A DNA stretch of 41,772 nucleotides from Candidatus Gastranaerophilales bacterium (GTDB taxonomy: Bacteria; Cyanobacteriota; Vampirovibrionia; Gastranaerophilales; Gastranaerophilaceae): NCBI GenBank assembly GCA_947624265.1, contig CANQJQ010000003.1, positions 1 through 41,772 on the forward strand, written 5' to 3'. The notes beneath the pieces were generated by a model. It saw only the letters and a list, made by a program, of their open reading frames with translations, did not search any database and was not told the origin of the DNA. Positions 2,026 through 32,651 of the stretch are shown in pieces. The translations under genes and the position numbers were made by a program. How positions within the stretch are numbered: the first letter of the stretch is position 1; every line of letters begins with the position of its first letter.

Positions 2026-2304
2026 ATGAATAATCTGTTTATAAATCAAAAAACGCCCAATGAAATTGCGAAAAATTTAGCGGATAAAATTAAAAAAAAC
2101 CGTAAAAAATTAAAGATTTCGCAGGAAATTTTAGCGCAAAAATCAGGTGTTAGTTTAGGCAGCATTAAAAGATTTGAAACAAAATATGAAATTTCTCTGC
2201 AATCGCTTATAAAAATTACAATTGCACTTAATTTAGATAATGACATTGAAAATTTATTTACACAAAAAACTTACACTTCAATCGATGAGGTAATTAATGA
2301 ATAA
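2026..2304 (+). CDS. hipB: HipB-like XRE-family antitoxin
   Basis: A 92-residue protein with a helix-turn-helix of the XRE/Cro class at roughly residues 14-72 (RKKLKISQEILAQKSGVS, then SIKRFETKYEISLQSLIKI). It is immediately followed by a HipA-like kinase, whose start overlaps this gene by 8 bases, so the two are translationally coupled. In HipBA systems the antitoxin binds and neutralises the kinase and represses the operon. The palindromes at 1969-1984 and 2010-2025 are the likely operators. No Shine-Dalgarno precedes the ATG; see the promoter entry. Confidence 0.88.
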   Translation: MNNLFINQKTPNEIAKNLADKIKKNRKKLKISQEILAQKSGVSLGSIKRFETKYEISLQSLIKITIALNLDNDIENLFTQKTYTSIDEVINE

Positions 2305-3403
2305 TTATAAATACCTTAAAGTTTTTTATAATGATAAATTAGTCGGAACCTTAGCTAAAACGCCCGACAGGCTCGTTGCTTTTGAATATGACAGCGAATG
2401 GATTAATTCAGGTTTTAGCATTTCACCGTTCTCACTCCCGCTTGAAAAAAAAGTATATTTGCCGAAATTTGAACCGTTTGACGGTTTATTTGGGGTGTTT
2501 AATGACAGTCTGCCTGACGGTTGGGGAAGATTACTTGTTGACAGATTTTTGCTTAAAAACAAAATTAACCCAAGCGAAATTGATAATTTGAATCGTCTTG
2601 CGGTTGTTCAAGAAAGCGGTATGGGAGCTTTAACATATAAACCCGAGCACAGATTTGAAACTTCAAAAGAAGAATCCGATTATGATAAACTTGCTAATGA
2701 ATGTTCAAAAATATTAGAGTCGCAAAATTCGGATAATTTAGATGAATTGTTTAAACTTGGAGGCTCATCAGGCGGTGCAAGACCGAAAATTCTTACTAAA
2801 ATAAATAATGAAGATTGGATAATCAAATTTCCGTCTTCACAAGATTCTAAAAATATAGGAGAACAAGAATACAAATATTCGCTTTTGGCAAAAGCTTGCG
2901 GAATAAAAATGAGCGAAACCCAATTATTTCCGTCTAAAATATGTTCGGGATATTTTGGGATAAAGCGTTTTGATAGAGAAAACGGCAGAAAAATTCATAT
3001 GGTATCAGTCAGCGCCTTATTAGAAACAAGTCATCGCCTGCCCAATCTTGATTATAATATTTTGATGAAGCTGACTTTAGAATTAACCAAAAATTATCAA
3101 GATATTGAACAATTATACAGGCTTATGTGTTTTAATGTTTTTGCCCATAATAGAGATGACCACTCTAAGAATTTCTCGTTTTTATATGATGAAAATAAAA
3201 AAGAATGGCACTTGTCGCCTGCGTATGATTTGACTTACAGCTCGTCTTTCAACGGAGAACACGCAACAACAATCAACGGCGAAGGTAAAAATCCGAGTTT
3301 GGAAAATATTTTAGCAGTTGCAAAAAATATTGGAATAAAAGAAAAATCGGCTCGCGAAATCGCTCTTGAGATTAAAGAAAAATGCTTATCATTAGTTGAT
3401 TAA
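2297..3403 (+). CDS. hipA: HipA-like serine/threonine kinase toxin
   Basis: A 368-residue protein with the layout of HipA: an N-terminal lobe with the coupling motif FNDSLPDGWGRLLVD (near residues 70-85), a glycine/serine-rich loop GGSSGGARPK at about 155-164, a catalytic segment AHNRDDHSKNF near 283-293, and the metal-binding SPAYDL near 307-312. The catalytic Asp and the downstream Asp are both present, so it is predicted active. It is shorter than E. coli HipA (about 440). E. coli HipA phosphorylates glutamyl-tRNA synthetase; the target here is unknown, though a gltX gene lies at 39112 in the same window. Confidence 0.88.
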   Translation: MNNYKYLKVFYNDKLVGTLAKTPDRLVAFEYDSEWINSGFSISPFSLPLEKKVYLPKFEPFDGLFGVFNDSLPDGWGRLLVDRFLLKNKINPSEIDNLNRLAVVQESGMGALTYKPEHRFETSKEESDYDKLANECSKILESQNSDNLDELFKLGGSSGGARPKILTKINNEDWIIKFPSSQDSKNIGEQEYKYSLLAKACGIKMSETQLFPSKICSGYFGIKRFDRENGRKIHMVSVSALLETSHRLPNLDYNILMKLTLELTKNYQDIEQLYRLMCFNVFAHNRDDHSKNFSFLYDENKKEWHLSPAYDLTYSSSFNGEHATTINGEGKNPSLENILAVAKNIGIKEKSAREIALEIKEKCLSLVD

Positions 3404-6542: not shown

Positions 6543-7703
6543 ATGACGGCTTTAAAATCGGATGTAAATACTAAAAAAACCAAAAATCTTGTAAAAGATT
6601 ACCCTTGGTTTTATTCAAATATTTATGAAAAAATTCAGGAAGCTACCGAAAAATTTTTCCAAAAGGACATTAATTTAAGATTTATGGGAGTTTCTACGGA
6701 CGAAAATATTTTTGTATACGGAGATGAATATTTTGTTAATCAAATACCCGTGAGCAAAAATTCCGTAGTTAAGGTTAAAATTTCTGCAAATCTTGTATCT
6801 TCAATATTGGATGTTGTTTTAGGCGGTTCGGATACCCCATTTAAGCTTAACAGTTTAACTGATATTGAAGCTATGCTTATGAAATCATACACAATATTTC
6901 TTTATAAGCATATTGAAGAACCTTTGATTAAGACAGAACTTAACAGAAAGGTGCTGGAAAATTCAAAAGATTACAATTTCACCTTTTTCGCACAATGCAA
7001 TAATAAACATTCGGGCAAAATAATCATAACAATACCTGATTATATGATACCCGAGATTGAACATAATATAAATAAAGAACATTTCTCAATATCGGATTTT
7101 AAGAATTCAAGAGTAAAAGTAAAATTAAACGCAGGCTCGGCAAAAATTGCGTTAAATGAAATTCAAACAATCGAGACAGGCGACATTATTCTTTTGGATG
7201 ACAGTAACGTCAATAGAATGTCTGTAGTATGGGATGATAAAAAAATAAACTTTAATATAAACCCGAATCCATCCTTAATAGTGAGTGTAAGTAATAACGG
7301 AGGCAAGGAAATGGAAGAAACAGCTAATGCAAAACCTCAAAATATGTGGGATTCAATTCTCGTAGATATAGTTGCGGAGTTTGATAACGTAAAATTAACC
7401 CTAGGAGAATTAAAACAAATATCGGAAGGGCTTGTTATAGACCTTGGCTCGGTTTATGAAAATAAAGTCAGATTGAGAGTTGAAAATCAGGTGGTTGCAA
7501 CTGGCGAACTGGTAATTCTCAATGACAGATACGGAGTAAGAATTGATAAAGTTGCGAAAGTAAAAAGTAATGAAGTAAAAAAAGAACAACCGGCAAAACA
7601 AGAGGCTAAAGCTCCGGTAAAAGAAAATCCCAAGCAAGCACCGAAGAAAGGTGATGAAAACTTTGACTACAGTGATTTTGAAATAGAAGATGAAAGTATT
7701 TAA
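6543..7703 (+). CDS. FliM/FliN-like (SctQ-like) C-ring protein with two SpoA domains
   Basis: 386 residues. The N-terminal half has a FliM-middle-domain-like stretch (SSILDVVLGGSDTPF, then LTDIEAMLMKSY near 100-115). Two surface-presentation-of-antigens (SpoA) domains follow, at about 195-245 (VKVKLNAGSAKIALNEI) and about 275-335 (VDIVAEFDNVKLTLGELKQI). The C-terminal 50 residues are a Lys/Glu/Pro-rich linker and an acidic tail. FliM has one SpoA and FliN one; a single chain with both resembles injectisome SctQ or a FliM-FliN fusion. It heads the fliO-fliP-fliQ-fliR operon and would form the cytoplasmic sorting or switch ring. A GGTGA precedes the ATG. Confidence 0.78.
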   Translation: MTALKSDVNTKKTKNLVKDYPWFYSNIYEKIQEATEKFFQKDINLRFMGVSTDENIFVYGDEYFVNQIPVSKNSVVKVKISANLVSSILDVVLGGSDTPFKLNSLTDIEAMLMKSYTIFLYKHIEEPLIKTELNRKVLENSKDYNFTFFAQCNNKHSGKIIITIPDYMIPEIEHNINKEHFSISDFKNSRVKVKLNAGSAKIALNEIQTIETGDIILLDDSNVNRMSVVWDDKKINFNINPNPSLIVSVSNNGGKEMEETANAKPQNMWDSILVDIVAEFDNVKLTLGELKQISEGLVIDLGSVYENKVRLRVENQVVATGELVILNDRYGVRIDKVAKVKSNEVKKEQPAKQEAKAPVKENPKQAPKKGDENFDYSDFEIEDESI

Positions 7704-7708
7704 AAAAG

Positions 7709-7966
7709 ATGAACGATTATTTAATACATTTTGCCACATATACACTTGCAATGCTGGGATTTATAGTCCTTGCGGTATATGTATATAAAAAAACCATCTA
7801 TACTTGTCCAAAGCAAGACAACAAAAATTTTTTGAAGGTGGAAAATGCTTTAAGATTATCTGCAAGCAAAACAATATATGTTTTAAAAGCTGGTAATGAA
7901 AAGTTTTTAATAGCAGGCGACAGCTCAAATACAACAATGCTTGCAAAATTAAAGGAAGAGAATTAA
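7709..7966 (+). CDS. fliO: FliO-like export-apparatus assembly protein
   Basis: 85 residues: one N-terminal transmembrane helix (about 7-27) and a small cytoplasmic domain. That domain's pattern VENALRLSASKTIYVLKAG, then FLIAGDS, is the FliO signature (LxxxxxVxVVxxGxxxxLLG-like). FliO helps assemble the FliP pentamer in flagellar systems and is not normally found in injectisomes. It begins 5 bases after the SpoA protein and 19 bases before fliP. The gene symbol is by similarity of pattern and position. Confidence 0.72.
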   Translation: MNDYLIHFATYTLAMLGFIVLAVYVYKKTIYTCPKQDNKNFLKVENALRLSASKTIYVLKAGNEKFLIAGDSSNTTMLAKLKEEN

Positions 7967-7985
7967 GAAAAAAACAGAGGTAAAC

Positions 7986-8627
7986 ATGGATTCAGTATTA
8001 AGAGATTTAAGCCCGATATTACAGTTACTAATGGTAATGGCAATATTTTCACTGTTACCGTTTATGTTTGTATGTATGACAAGTTTTATGCGTTATGCAA
8101 TAGTATTCGGATTTTTAAAGCAGGCTCTGGGGGCGCAGCAGATTCCTCCCGCCATTGTACTTGTCGGTTTATCAATAATATTGACTTTCTATACGATGGG
8201 ACCTGTTTTTCAACAAATGTACGAACTCGGTTCTAAACCTTATGAAAAGGACGGCTCTATTGTTATGGCATTGACGGAAGGCTCAAAACCCTTGAAAGAA
8301 TTTATGCTGAAACAGACAAGAGAAAAAGACCTCGCATTTTTTGTACAATTATCAAGAAAAGAAGCACCCGCATCAATTGAAGATGTTACCATCTGGGAGG
8401 TTGCTCCCGCATATATATTGAGCGAATTAAAAACAGCTTTTGAAATAAGCTTTATTATATTTGTACCGTTTATAGTCTTGGACTTGGTAATAGCGAACGT
8501 ACTGTTGGCATTAGGTATGTTCATGCTGTCGCCCACAATTATATCCTTGCCGTTTAAACTGCTGATATTTATTGCCGTGGACGGATGGGGCTTGATTGTA
8601 AACGGTTTGGTCGGAAGTTTTAATTAA
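7986..8627 (+). CDS. fliP: FliP/SctR export-gate protein
   Basis: 213 residues with family hallmarks: TSFMRYAIVFGFLKQALGAQQ-like region near 35-55, the periplasmic FMLKQTREKDLAFF near 103-116, and ELKTAFEISFIIFVPFIVLDL near 143-165. Four hydrophobic segments are present. There is no cleaved signal peptide, so the length is that of SctR (about 215) rather than most FliP proteins (about 245 with signal). It forms the core of the inner-membrane export gate with FliQ and FliR. An AGAGGT Shine-Dalgarno lies before the ATG. Confidence 0.95.
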   Translation: MDSVLRDLSPILQLLMVMAIFSLLPFMFVCMTSFMRYAIVFGFLKQALGAQQIPPAIVLVGLSIILTFYTMGPVFQQMYELGSKPYEKDGSIVMALTEGSKPLKEFMLKQTREKDLAFFVQLSRKEAPASIEDVTIWEVAPAYILSELKTAFEISFIIFVPFIVLDLVIANVLLALGMFMLSPTIISLPFKLLIFIAVDGWGLIVNGLVGSFN

Positions 8628-8636
8628 GGATAAATT

Positions 8637-9134
8637 ATGGAAATATTAATAGAATATCTTGCAAAAGGACTAATGACAATGCTGATGATAGCGATGCCAT
8701 GTGTATTGGTAGCGGCAGCAATCGGTCTTGTTGTCGGTATCCTGCAAGCGGTAACTCAGGTTCAGGAACAAACTATAGCCGCAGCACCTAAGATATTTGC
8801 GGTATTCTTAACTATAATTATTTTGGGAACAGGCTATATTAAACTTTTATCCAACTTCTTTAATGAAGGAGCTTCCATTGCCTTTGATGTAATCCCAAAA
8901 TCCGACGATTTTGTGCTTCCCGAAGGATATTACAATTATACGAAGCCGTTTATAGATGAAATGAAAACGGATGTAAAAAAAGATATGATTCCGATGAACA
9001 GAATACTTAATAATGCAACCAAACCGCAAGGAATAAACGAAAGTGATAAATTTAATTTCTTAAGAAACGGAGCAAAAGAAATCCCGACACCTAACCTTGC
9101 CGAAAGAAAAAGAATAATGGAAAATAAACGCTGA
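8637..9134 (+). CDS. fliQ: FliQ/SctS export-gate protein with long C-terminal extension
   Basis: The first 85 residues are a standard two-helix FliQ (VLVAAAIGLVVGILQAVTQVQEQ, then IIILGTGYIKL). FliQ and SctS normally end near residue 90. Here about 80 further residues follow: a Tyr/Pro/Lys-rich polar stretch ending NLAERKRIMENKR, without a recognisable domain. The extension is in frame and overlaps the fliR start by 3 bases in a TGATG-type junction, so it is unlikely to be an artefact. It would lie at the membrane surface of the export gate and could contact the C-ring protein or a chaperone. Confidence 0.93.
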   Translation: MEILIEYLAKGLMTMLMIAMPCVLVAAAIGLVVGILQAVTQVQEQTIAAAPKIFAVFLTIIILGTGYIKLLSNFFNEGASIAFDVIPKSDDFVLPEGYYNYTKPFIDEMKTDVKKDMIPMNRILNNATKPQGINESDKFNFLRNGAKEIPTPNLAERKRIMENKR

Positions 9135-9916
9135 TGCTGGACGCTATATTAAACGAATTTCCGAAAATATTTCCAGAAATTAATAATGCAATAGCTGCAG
9201 GCATACCCATATTTGCCCGCACGGCAGGCTTAATGAGAGCAACTCCCTTCTTAAACAGAAGCGAAGTACCCATGATAGCTAAAGTCGGCTTTACTTTTAT
9301 TTTTACGGTCATATTAACAATGCTTTTAAAACCGGGACCTATGCCCTCTAACGTATCTTTACCGATAGTTATAATATTAAATTATTTATGCGGAGCTTTA
9401 ATAGGTTATATTGTAAATTGCATAATTTCAGCCGTAGAAAGCGGAGGAGATATGATAAACATGCAGCAGGGTGTATCTTCCGCAACAATTATGGATCCTT
9501 CAACATCATCTCAAGTTTCTATTATGGGAAGGTTGTTCAGCTTGTTAGGCTTAATTATTTTTCTAGAAATAGGCGGTGCATACTGGACATTTAATGCTTT
9601 TATCAGAAGTTTTGAAATTTTCCCGATATATTCAGCTTTAGTGCCCATTGATGAAATAGTTAATATGCCTTATCTGGTAAAAATTACGTCAAATGTTTTA
9701 TATATAGGTTTACAGATAGCATCACCCGTTTTGCTTGCAACATTAGGGCAGGATATAATTCTGGGTATTATTTCCAAAACTGCACCTCAGGTTAACGTAT
9801 TTCAAATGAGTTTCTTATTTAAACCGTGCTTGGGTTCCGCAATATTAATCGTAATACTGCCTTCCGTTTTTGATGCAATTAATGATTTCTATCTGTCGTT
9901 TGCTAATATTTTTTAA
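9134..9916 (+). CDS. fliR: FliR/SctT export-gate protein
   Basis: 260 residues, all-helical and membrane-embedded, with family features: FARTAGLMRATPFLNRSEVP near 22-42, the GALIGYIVNCIISAVESGGDMI region near 85-110 (GxxxGxxxxxxxxxxxxxGxxI), and the ASPVLLATLGQDIILGIISKTAPQVNVFQ segment near 190-220. It starts at the last base of fliQ's stop codon. No flhB or flhA follows: the operon ends here and a convergent gene begins 10 bases on. The rest of the apparatus must be encoded elsewhere. Confidence 0.93.
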   Translation: MLDAILNEFPKIFPEINNAIAAGIPIFARTAGLMRATPFLNRSEVPMIAKVGFTFIFTVILTMLLKPGPMPSNVSLPIVIILNYLCGALIGYIVNCIISAVESGGDMINMQQGVSSATIMDPSTSSQVSIMGRLFSLLGLIIFLEIGGAYWTFNAFIRSFEIFPIYSALVPIDEIVNMPYLVKITSNVLYIGLQIASPVLLATLGQDIILGIISKTAPQVNVFQMSFLFKPCLGSAILIVILPSVFDAINDFYLSFANIF

Positions 9917-15410: not shown

Positions 15411-16205
15411 TTAATTTTCATCATTTTCGGGTTTTACGACTGTTGTTATACCCAATAAAGCCTTAAAAAAGTCTTTTATTGAAGAACCTTTATCTTGTCC
15501 TGCTTTTACTGTACCAAAGGCTCCGCCTTCAGTCGCTCTATCTAAAAGTTCTTTAAAATTTTGTCCTGCTTTTACTGTACCAAAAGCTCCACCTTCAAGC
15601 GCTCTATCTACCAGTTCTTTAAAATTTTGTCCTGCTTCTACTGTACCAAAGGCTCCACCTTCAAGCGCTCTATCTACAAGTTCTTTAAAATTTTGTCCTG
15701 CTTCTACCGTGCCAAAGGCTCCGCCTTCAATCGCTCTATCTACAAGTTCTTTAAAATTTTGTCCTGCTTCTACCGTGCCAAAGGCTCCGCCTTCAAGCGC
15801 TCTATCTACAAGTTCTTTAAAATTTTGTCCTGCTTCTACTGTACTAAAGGCTCCGCCTTCAGTCGCTCTATCTAAAAGTTCTTTAAAATTTTGTCCTGCT
15901 TTTACTGTGCCAAAGGCTCCGCCTTCAAGCGCTCTATCTACGGCGTCCTCTAAAGCTGATCCTTCTGCACCTGCTTTTACTACTGCATTAGCTCCACCTA
16001 AAATTGCTCCTTTTACCGCATCCTCAAAAGCTGATCCTTCTGCACCTGCTTTTACTACACCAAGGGCGCCTGTAACTGCTCCTTCTACGGCATCCTCAAA
16101 AATAGGTTTTTCAGTTCCTTCATCCTCTTTGGGTGTATCAGTCTCTTGATTTTCTTGAGGTTTAACAACAGCTGATAATCCTATTAATTTTTCTACAAAA
16201 CTCAT
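15411..16205 (-). CDS. Tandem 22-residue repeat protein, function unknown
   Basis: 264 residues without signal peptide or membrane helix. About residues 87-245 hold six units of NFKELVDRALEGGAFGTV-type 22-residue repeats (66 bp each at the DNA level) plus partial flanking units. The preceding region has three related 25-residue units (EDAVxGAxxGGAxxVVKAGAEGSA), so the array seems to have grown from an older repeat. The N-terminus (VEKLIGLSAVVKPQ) and the C-terminus (FFKALLGITTVVKPE) are copies of one short module. Units differ mostly at Leu/Val, Ala-Leu/Ala-Thr and Glu/Lys positions. AAAGGAAA precedes the start, and a strong terminator follows. No family is recognised; a filament, sheet or adaptor is possible. 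Confidence 0.75.
   Translation of the reverse strand: MSFVEKLIGLSAVVKPQENQETDTPKEDEGTEKPIFEDAVEGAVTGALGVVKAGAEGSAFEDAVKGAILGGANAVVKAGAEGSALEDAVDRALEGGAFGTVKAGQNFKELLDRATEGGAFSTVEAGQNFKELVDRALEGGAFGTVEAGQNFKELVDRAIEGGAFGTVEAGQNFKELVDRALEGGAFGTVEAGQNFKELVDRALEGGAFGTVKAGQNFKELLDRATEGGAFGTVKAGQDKGSSIKDFFKALLGITTVVKPENDEN
15497..15943 (-). repeat. 66-bp tandem repeat array inside the repeat-protein gene
   Basis: Units recur at exact 66-base spacing: a TTCTTTAAAATTTTGTCC word starts at 15549, 15615, 15681, 15747, 15813 and 15879. Copies are nearly identical, which makes unit-number variation by recombination likely. It is a coding repeat in phase with the protein, not a CRISPR array. Confidence 0.93.
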
Positions 16206-30456: not shown

Positions 30457-31353
30457 ATGCAGGTAACATTTGGGGTTAATAATCAAGCCGGATATATTTT
30501 TCAGGACATGCCTTATAATGAAAAAAATACTTATCCTTCATATATAAATAAAAATAATTCGGATACTTTTGAACGGCAATCGTTAAAGAACAAAATCAAA
30601 AGTAATAAAAAATTGATAATAGGCGGTGCAATAATAGGTACAGCTGTTATAGGGGCAATAGTATTCAGAAAAAATATAGCAGGCTTGATAAAATCTGTAA
30701 AAGCTCCCAAACAAACAGTAACAGAGCCTGTAAAAACATCAGGTCTGACAGAAGATATGATTAATAAAGCAAAGGATTTCCTTATAAATGATGTTCAGAC
30801 CACAGGTGAAGCAACGGCTAACGGAATATGTTTTTACGGTCCGGATTCACTCGGAAAAGAAAAAGCAATTTCTCAGTTTTTAAATGATTTACAAACTTCC
30901 GGATATAAAATAGAGCATGCTCCAAGGGTAAATAATACCCCACTTCAGGAAATAAGCGGCCATATAAATGAATTAATTAAAGAAGCGGAAGAAAGATTTA
31001 ATTCATCAAAAATAAGAACTGCAATAGTAGTAAGAGATATAGATAAAATTGCATCAGACAGACGCATAGGCAACGGAGAAACATCAAGTGTTGTAAGTGC
31101 TTTATTAAAAATGCAGGATTGCAGAAAACGAGGTTTTGCTTGGATATCGGAGGCTGTGGATGTATCAAAAGTTGATGCTGCAGTTGCAAGAATGGGCAGA
31201 ATGGAGCATAAAATTCCTATAATGCCGTTAGCAGACGAACCAATATCCGTATGGAATAAGTATATTGCACTTATTGAAAGATTTAAAGACGGAGTTAAAA
31301 AAGATACTCTTTTACAAGAAGCACGAGAAATAATAAGTAAGAAAGGAATATAA
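30457..31353 (+). CDS. Membrane-anchored degenerate AAA-type protein
   Basis: 298 residues. After MQVTFGVNNQ there is a transmembrane helix at about 53-70 and then an AAA-like domain. The Walker-A position reads YGPDSLGKEK (about 127-136): the P-loop Gly and Lys remain, but the Thr/Ser after Lys is Glu. The Walker-B position (IVVRDIDKIA, about 189-198) lacks the usual DE. A likely arginine-finger region VARMGRMEHKIP follows near 243-254. It is 8 bases before a second AAA protein and probably forms a complex with it. It is likely a weak or non-hydrolysing subunit. Its TFG tag near the N-terminus resembles that of the next protein's SFG. Confidence 0.72.
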   Translation: MQVTFGVNNQAGYIFQDMPYNEKNTYPSYINKNNSDTFERQSLKNKIKSNKKLIIGGAIIGTAVIGAIVFRKNIAGLIKSVKAPKQTVTEPVKTSGLTEDMINKAKDFLINDVQTTGEATANGICFYGPDSLGKEKAISQFLNDLQTSGYKIEHAPRVNNTPLQEISGHINELIKEAEERFNSSKIRTAIVVRDIDKIASDRRIGNGETSSVVSALLKMQDCRKRGFAWISEAVDVSKVDAAVARMGRMEHKIPIMPLADEPISVWNKYIALIERFKDGVKKDTLLQEAREIISKKGI

Positions 31354-31361
31354 TTTTAATT

Positions 31362-32651
31362 ATGAAAATTTCGGCAATTAATGGTTTAAACCCGACAAAA
31401 GTTAATAAAAAAAGTTTTGTAAATTTTAACAGGGAAAATAAAGGACAATATACAAGCAATGCAATAAATATGCCAAACGATAATTACGGCAAAGCTCAAA
31501 TCGGATTAAACAAAAAATATAATCCTTCTTTTGGTTTTGACCTGTTCACTCTCGGTATGATTGGATATGCCCTTTTATATGCGGGGATTTTAGGTGCAGG
31601 AGTTTATCAAACAAATCTGGATGAAAAAAAACGTGCTGAAGAAAGCAGAAAATTAGAACAAGAAACGCAAAATTCAATAAATTCAATATCACAAAAATTA
31701 AATGTTTCTTATGATGAAGCTAAAGATTATCATTATAGTTTCTTAAGATTAGCTGATATTCCGTTTCAAAACAACGGGCATGAAAGAGGTTTAAACGCAG
31801 TTCAAGGTTACGGAGTAGAAAAATACAGACTATCCATGGATGTAATTGCACCGATTGTTGCGAAATCAAAAGATCAATATTTGGGTTATAACGGCAAAGT
31901 TCCTAACGGAGTGTTATTATACGGACCCACCGGAGGAGGCAAAACTTATATTTCCGACAAAGTTTGTGATCACTTAAAATATTTAGGTTTACCCGTAGAA
32001 GACATTGAATTGGATGAAAATAACCATGCCAAAAATGTAAGAAATATTCAAAATGCATTTAAAAAAGCAGAAGAAACCTATAATCAAACAGGCAAGATAA
32101 CAATGATAAACTTTAAGCAGGATGTGGATAATTTCTTTTTAGACAGGAGAAACCATCCTGAATGTATTAAAGAAGTAAGGGCACTGTTAAAGTGTATGGA
32201 AAATTGCGCTGAAAAAGGTGCTGTTTGGATAGGAACGGCAAACAATCCTCAAATGATTGATTCTGCATTGTTACGTCCCGGAAGAACAGATGTTAAACTT
32301 CCTATTGGAGATATGCAGGATTTTGCCGTAGCAGATATGATTAAGTATTCTTTGTTTAAGTATGATGAAAAAGAAAGCGCAAAGGATTTTGATTATCAAA
32401 AAGTCCTTGATAATATGAAAGATAATTTACTTGTATTCACGCCTGCAGAATTAGAGTTATTTGTAATTCAAGCAATAAATCATAAATTAGCACCTTCTCA
32501 ACATCTGAGCGCAGATATGATTATTGCTGAAATGGAGCATTATTCACAAAATGATTTTCCGACTTTAACCGAAGAAATGAAACAAAGATTTAAAGAAGAT
32601 AAAATTTATATGACTTCGTTAGAAAGTTCGAAAAAAGGGAAAAAAAGTTAA
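31362..32651 (+). CDS. Membrane-anchored AAA ATPase
   Basis: 429 residues. A polar 55-residue N-terminus holding NPSFGFD (about 54-60), a transmembrane helix at about 60-82, a coiled-coil, then an AAA domain: Walker A YGPTGGGKTY (Tyr187-Tyr196, with Lys194 and Thr195), sensor-1 WIGTANNP near 288-296, and arginine-finger LLRPGRTDVKLP near 303-314. Walker B reads MINFKQDVDNFF (near 247-258), with no DE pair, so hydrolysis is uncertain. The layout resembles FtsH without its protease domain. It is 8 bases after the degenerate paralogue and no Shine-Dalgarno is visible, so the two are probably translated together. Confidence 0.78.
   Translation: MKISAINGLNPTKVNKKSFVNFNRENKGQYTSNAINMPNDNYGKAQIGLNKKYNPSFGFDLFTLGMIGYALLYAGILGAGVYQTNLDEKKRAEESRKLEQETQNSINSISQKLNVSYDEAKDYHYSFLRLADIPFQNNGHERGLNAVQGYGVEKYRLSMDVIAPIVAKSKDQYLGYNGKVPNGVLLYGPTGGGKTYISDKVCDHLKYLGLPVEDIELDENNHAKNVRNIQNAFKKAEETYNQTGKITMINFKQDVDNFFLDRRNHPECIKEVRALLKCMENCAEKGAVWIGTANNPQMIDSALLRPGRTDVKLPIGDMQDFAVADMIKYSLFKYDEKESAKDFDYQKVLDNMKDNLLVFTPAELELFVIQAINHKLAPSQHLSADMIIAEMEHYSQNDFPTLTEEMKQRFKEDKIYMTSLESSKKGKKS

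Follow-up and report, generated by a model that had tools for sequence, protein, structure and literature searches.

The window (the whole stretch of 41,772 nucleotides analysed here) carries two adjacent genes, hereafter A and B, which form an obligate operon pair and encode membrane-anchored classic-AAA proteins. The N-terminal tag borne by both products belongs to a larger, hitherto unnoticed and lineage-specific set of tagged proteins. To our knowledge, the order Gastranaerophilales comprises non-photosynthetic gut relatives of cyanobacteria, the cell biology of which is hardly known. The pair would be a clear-cut example from nature of a membrane AAA machine built from one degenerate and one unorthodox subunit, and we consider the tag to outweigh it in importance.

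The A–B gene pair and its genomic site

Gene A (30457..31353, forward strand) encodes a protein of 298 aa with a short FG tail, one predicted TM helix and a degenerate AAA core, and gene B (31362..32651, forward strand) encodes a protein of 429 aa with a bipartite N-terminal tag, one predicted TM helix and an AAA domain with a helical lid. An ORF check of the window confirmed both frames, on the same strand and 8 bp apart. Both proteins scored above the gathering cut-off of 21.2 for Pfam AAA (PF00004), with 34.4 bits for A and 55.2 bits for B. Each has a single hydrophobic peak (A, residue 52, mean KD 2.17; B, residue 61, mean KD 1.75), and the TM helices predicted at residues 52–70 of A (30610..30666) and 61–79 of B (31542..31598) are called from hydrophobicity only, the AlphaFold pLDDT being below 50 across most of that region. 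The arrangement described in the first-pass annotation, with an FG tail (TFG in A, PSFGF in B), one TM helix and an AAA-like domain in each of the neighbouring genes, was therefore recovered in full.

In a search of 58 related genomes, orthologues of A and B were found in the identical 18 of the 35 same-genus genomes, the other 17 having neither; outside the genus, none of these genomes yielded an orthologue of A or B, and distant AAAs matched weakly. Gene A lies directly upstream of B in all 18 carriers, the two being separated by −4 to +27 bp. A wider scan of 84,980 species genomes returned 20 loci (three of them additional to the first 18), all from Gastranaerophilales and all paired (20/20); the relatives matched are Candidatus Gastranaerophilales, mostly MAGs labelled 'Lapin'. 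The coupling of the two genes, proposed from the window alone, is thus borne out, since no relative with only one of them was found among the 58 genomes or the 20 loci.

The site of the pair is frequently just upstream of nrdD, and its neighbours in the window are permease genes, nrdD and nrdG. In genome G004, which lacks the pair, the same permease gene precedes nrdD, and a small unrelated gene lies between the two. As these flanks are the same, the pair appears to be present or absent at a fixed site by gain or loss.

Fold, active-site residues and the putative ring

The cores of A and B are homologous (hhalign probability 99.4, 137 columns). The structure models had a mean pLDDT of 76.5 (A) and 72.7 (B), the AAA parts being confident and the tails and membrane helices mostly below 50, and both matched p97-type AAAs in a structure search. 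Cdc48/p97 (VCP) were also the nearest solved relatives of A and of B by sequence comparison, and VIA-align superposed the B model on p97 with a Z of 19.6 and an rmsd of 3.0 Å over 242 residues. However, the fold ranking was tied at Z values of about 18–20 (p97 19.6, proteasomal ATPases, FtsH 18.5/18.3, i-AAA 18.4), so the fold does not single out FtsH. The NCBIfam FtsH score was 37.6 bits against a cut-off of 600, with the match within the AAA part. The earlier suggestion of a relationship to FtsH-like proteins is thus not specifically supported, and FtsH ancestry, which we considered, finds no support in the sequences. B ends after the lid and one further helix and has no zinc-protease domain.

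Several known systems resemble the pair in part. Cdc48/p97 is nearest to A and B by sequence and aligns with the B model, but A and B have one AAA domain rather than two and a predicted membrane anchor, no p97 N-domain is shown in either, the Walker B of B is non-canonical and A lacks the P-loop Thr; the score against the Cdc48/p97 family was 43.9 bits, with a cut-off of 802.65. FtsH and i-AAA share with A and B an N-terminal TM segment followed by an AAA domain, and are tied with p97 in fold (Z 18.3–18.5), but A and B are devoid of the protease domain. The Ycf2-FtsHi complex of chloroplasts is a membrane-anchored hetero-oligomeric AAA motor with protease-dead subunits. It offers an analogy of working principle, and its entry 8xqw was among the Foldseek matches of B; however, its proteins are far larger and from another lineage, the AAA fold being the only evidence of common descent.

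The Walker A motif of B (GPTGGGKT, 31923..31946), defined by orthologue alignment, conforms to GPxGxGK[T/S] in all 18 aligned orthologues, residue 195 being Thr in 17 and Ser in one. Neither the sensor-1 residue N294 (32241..32243) nor R305 and R308 of the RPGR motif (residues 305–308, 32274..32285) varied among these 18 sequences. The Walker B region of B (INFKQDVD, 32106..32129) follows the pattern F-x-[Q/D/E/R/H/N]-D-x-D (FKQDVD in the window) and aligns to F-I-D-E-I-D of Cdc48; D254 and D256 are conserved in 18/18, and the catalytic-Glu position is thereby an Asp in every orthologue, whereas position 253, that of the Walker-B Asp, is unconserved (Q in nine, D in four, E in two, and R, H and N in one each). 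In A, the degenerate P-loop GPDSLGKE (30838..30861) retains its lysine in 18/18, and the next residue is Glu in 13, Asp in one and Thr in four, Thr thus being lost in 14/18. Three of the four sequences with Thr read NKT instead of GKT, and one A orthologue (L018) has an intact-looking Walker A. The Walker-B region of A reads R/K/N followed by D/E, and the arginine-finger-like motif R245-x-G-R248 (31189..31200) is retained in 18/18. The Walker B DE of AAA (PF00004) is consequently absent from both proteins.

These alignments agree with most of the initial reading, in which Glu replaced the P-loop Thr/Ser in the first gene, Walker A, sensor-1 and RPGR were kept in the second, and neither had a clear Walker-B DE. 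Its description of B as active-looking nevertheless goes too far, since the E-to-D change is invariant and the Walker-B Asp has been lost. Judged by these residues, B is an unorthodox AAA and, without the catalytic Glu, may be a pseudo-enzyme as well.

The residue pattern would fit a nucleotide-binding subunit (B) beside an arginine-finger donor (A), and a hetero-oligomeric membrane machine appears to be the best reading of the pair, in view of the strict co-occurrence, the homologous cores, the arginine fingers in both proteins and the loss of the P-loop in most A sequences. In the likeliest arrangement, A and B would form one shared ring at the membrane, in which A is a pseudo-ATPase subunit retaining the arginine finger and B is the subunit that binds nucleotide, presumably with residual ATPase activity. 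Such a ring might be a remodelling machine, slow or switch-like, that has no protease. We give about even chances to the proposal as a whole, namely an obligate paired membrane AAA machine, likely one ring, with both subunits in the set carrying a sorting tag.

It could be argued instead that B alone forms a working homo-oligomeric ring and that A is a regulatory partner or adaptor outside it. The B model is a complete AAA with a lid, A has no normal P-loop, and the C-terminal helical part of the A model is short and does not amount to a full lid. However, the retention of R245 and R248 in every A orthologue, residues relevant chiefly at a ring subunit interface, argues against this arrangement, to which we attribute about one chance in four. 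A function of the pair as an anti-phage system related to IetAS would be in keeping with its patchy distribution in the genus, with a weak PADLOC IetA match of B (4.6e-8) and with the strong IetA match (1.3e-45) of a second tagged AAA, encoded at L038:13192 in the same genome. It is nevertheless very unlikely, as the NCBIfam IteA score of B was 20.7, the cut-off being 510, and A and B are accompanied by permease genes and nrdD/nrdG rather than by a serine-protease partner. The one-ring machine remains our preferred reading of the pair.

A bipartite N-terminal tag in Gastranaerophilales

The N-terminus of B consists of two conserved boxes separated by a linker of variable length. Mean pairwise identity is 66% in box 1 (residues 1–8, MKISAING, 31362..31385), 22% in the linker (residues 9–54) and 97% in box 2 (residues 55–58, PSFG, 31524..31535). 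All 18 B orthologues in the first set carry SFG, and the three additional ones have SFG, RFG and SFK, the last being a form within the wider tag pattern. The codons of box 2 vary synonymously: Ser uses three codons, drawn from both of its codon boxes, Gly uses four, and this variety indicates selection on the protein. The tail of A, with its TFG motif at residues 4–6 (30466..30474), is less strict (F5 in 15/18, G6 in 11/18) and fits the tag only loosely. Conservation of the FG tails, on which the first-pass annotation had made its proposal depend, was accordingly found, most clearly for B.

Throughout the order, N-termini are enriched in a bipartite pattern, M-x-[IV]-[NS]-x-[IN] followed by a variable linker and [ST]F[GK]. 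We compared ORFs having a start box (M-x-[IV]-[NSQTPK]-x-[IVLFN]) with the remaining ORFs for the presence of [STN]F[GK] within 75 residues, in about half of the genome of the window and 200–400 kb from each of six other genomes. The start-box pattern used for all these genomes had been drawn up after examples were seen. In the own genome, 14/64 start-box ORFs had the motif vs 56/668 others, B of the window being counted among these 14. The corresponding values were 6/13 vs 16/167 in G020, 5/15 vs 11/157 in G026, 4/16 vs 12/155 in G024 and 12/35 vs 27/330 in G045, which belongs to another family. Enrichment was therefore seen in five genomes from two families of the order. Outside the order, the association was absent from G057, and G058 displayed no enrichment (1/14 vs 18/318), although its 50% GC weakens this comparison. 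The suggestion in the first-pass annotation that the FG tails may be a lineage-specific signal turned out to be its most fruitful point.

A count of all 8000 possible 3-mers in start-box ORFs, in which box 2 was not pre-chosen, gave the smallest p-values (4–5e-9) for SFG (16 vs 2.3 expected) and FKG (14 vs 1.7 expected); box 2 is the only part for which this test is free of bias, and related genomes are pooled in it. Plain positional counts of [STN]F[GK] revealed no clear N-terminal excess, which emerged when the motif was considered together with the start box. A limited search of the open-licence literature returned no account of a tag of this kind, and nothing pertinent on secretion systems or AAA proteins in Gastranaerophilales, Melainabacteria or Vampirovibrionia.

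Most of the 20 tagged proteins scanned had no convincing Pfam family. The others are a phosphoglucomutase, a PRPP synthetase, a GH77 glucanotransferase, a nucleotidyltransferase and an AAA. A predicted TM or hydrophobic stretch was found in 12/41 tagged ORFs, vs 44/102 untagged start-box ORFs; other tagged proteins look cytosolic. The share is thus lower when the tag is present, and a role in membrane insertion as a general rule was rejected.

The clearest contrast concerns the alpha-glucan enzymes. The orthodox GH77, present in nearly every genome of the order, matched the tag pattern in 1/30 sequences, and this match was a chance NFK, whereas the divergent extra GH77 copies sampled across the order (L221–L236, L240) had a tagged start in 15/17. 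GlgA was tagged in 0/29, and the pattern matches in GlgP (8/29) are false, the SFG lying within the conserved domain at about residue 52. As GlgA, orthodox GH77 and GlgP are untagged, we rejected a general role of the tag as a mark of glycogen enzymes. Additional long glycosyltransferase-5 (glycogen-synthase-like) proteins have a tag-like start (L037:5973-8675, L237:973-3636 and L238:2599-4863), and two of these three contain a hydrophobic stretch. Tagged and untagged copies with the same chemistry suggest different destinations, and the difference between extra and orthodox GH77 would be hard to explain otherwise.

The tails could also be regarded as meaningless products of compositional chance in an AT-rich genome, given that triplets of the SFG/SFK type are short and will turn up by chance in about 8% of N-termini. 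However, the difference in identity between PSFG and the linker within B, the p-value of about 4e-9 in the 3-mer test, the GH77 counts and the varied codons leave this explanation extremely improbable.

Two further sets of tagged genes were observed. The tagged AAA matching IetA (L038:13192-14586, '..SFGYDK..') is a protein of 464–480 aa found in most sampled genomes of the genus (also L021, L023–L030), beside an ftsX-like permease gene and with no protease partner seen. Another adjacent tagged gene pair (L050:17003-18824 and L061:12000-13815) is conserved in two genomes of the genus.

Possible destinations of the tagged proteins

We infer that the tag is a lineage-specific sorting signal; it would act at the protein level and would most likely be read by one receptor. 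The tagged proteins have no apparent common destination, which we counted against a single sorting function. It is tentatively proposed, at somewhat less than even chances, that Gastranaerophilales possess an undescribed sorting code, in which the bipartite tag diverts dozens of proteins, including the duplicate alpha-glucan enzymes and the paired AAA machine, to a common destination. This could be a compartment, the envelope or the outside of the cell, possibly reached through a filament-less flagellar-type T3SS. If the tag is indeed a sorting or export signal, it defines a hidden protein set at one stroke, in a directly testable manner.

Genes for SctQ/FliMN-like, FliO, FliP, FliQ and FliR proteins of such a system are present in the window (6543..9916, forward strand) and provide a candidate exporter, the link to the tag being hypothetical. 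An operon on another contig of the same genome (L096:6510-14732) encodes rod proteins, a transglycosylase, FliE, FliF, FliH and FlhA. The short (second) FliP and a second FlhA are found in nearly all genomes of the order, beside ordinary flagellar copies in the flagellated families and alone in the genus that has lost flagellin (no match, with two exceptions). The tag might then be a type III secretion signal, with A, B and the duplicate alpha-glucan enzymes among the exported proteins. In early flagellar substrates, a hydrophobic N-terminal signal is followed by a downstream GRM, the spacing of which is critical (PMC8983047), and this two-part layout with a linker resembles that of the tag. 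There is also a precedent: glycogen enzymes of Chlamydia bear T3S signals, and 5/6 of the chimeras tested were secreted by a T3SS (PMC4829429). However, the tag is far more conserved in sequence than early flagellar export signals, and the rod proteins and FliE, the expected substrates of the system described here, are untagged. Furthermore, G058, from another order, has both FliP types yet no enrichment of the tag, and many tagged proteins look cytosolic. We therefore regard export by this T3SS as unlikely, at perhaps one chance in five, and retain the broader proposal of a sorting code.

The filament-less flagellar-type T3SS itself is conserved across the order, and the short FliP extends to other orders of the class. 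Nearly all genomes sampled from the order also encode a protein of about 490 aa whose sole match is to the C-terminal cytoplasmic portion of FlhA (FHIPEP about 321–655; for example, L061:13847-15310). Elsewhere in the window, a small helix-turn-helix gene is followed by a HipA-looking gene of the toxin-antitoxin type (2026–3403, recognized by eye only), and positions 15411–16205 encode a protein of near-identical repeats (about 'FEDAVxGAxxGAxxxVKAGAEGSA').
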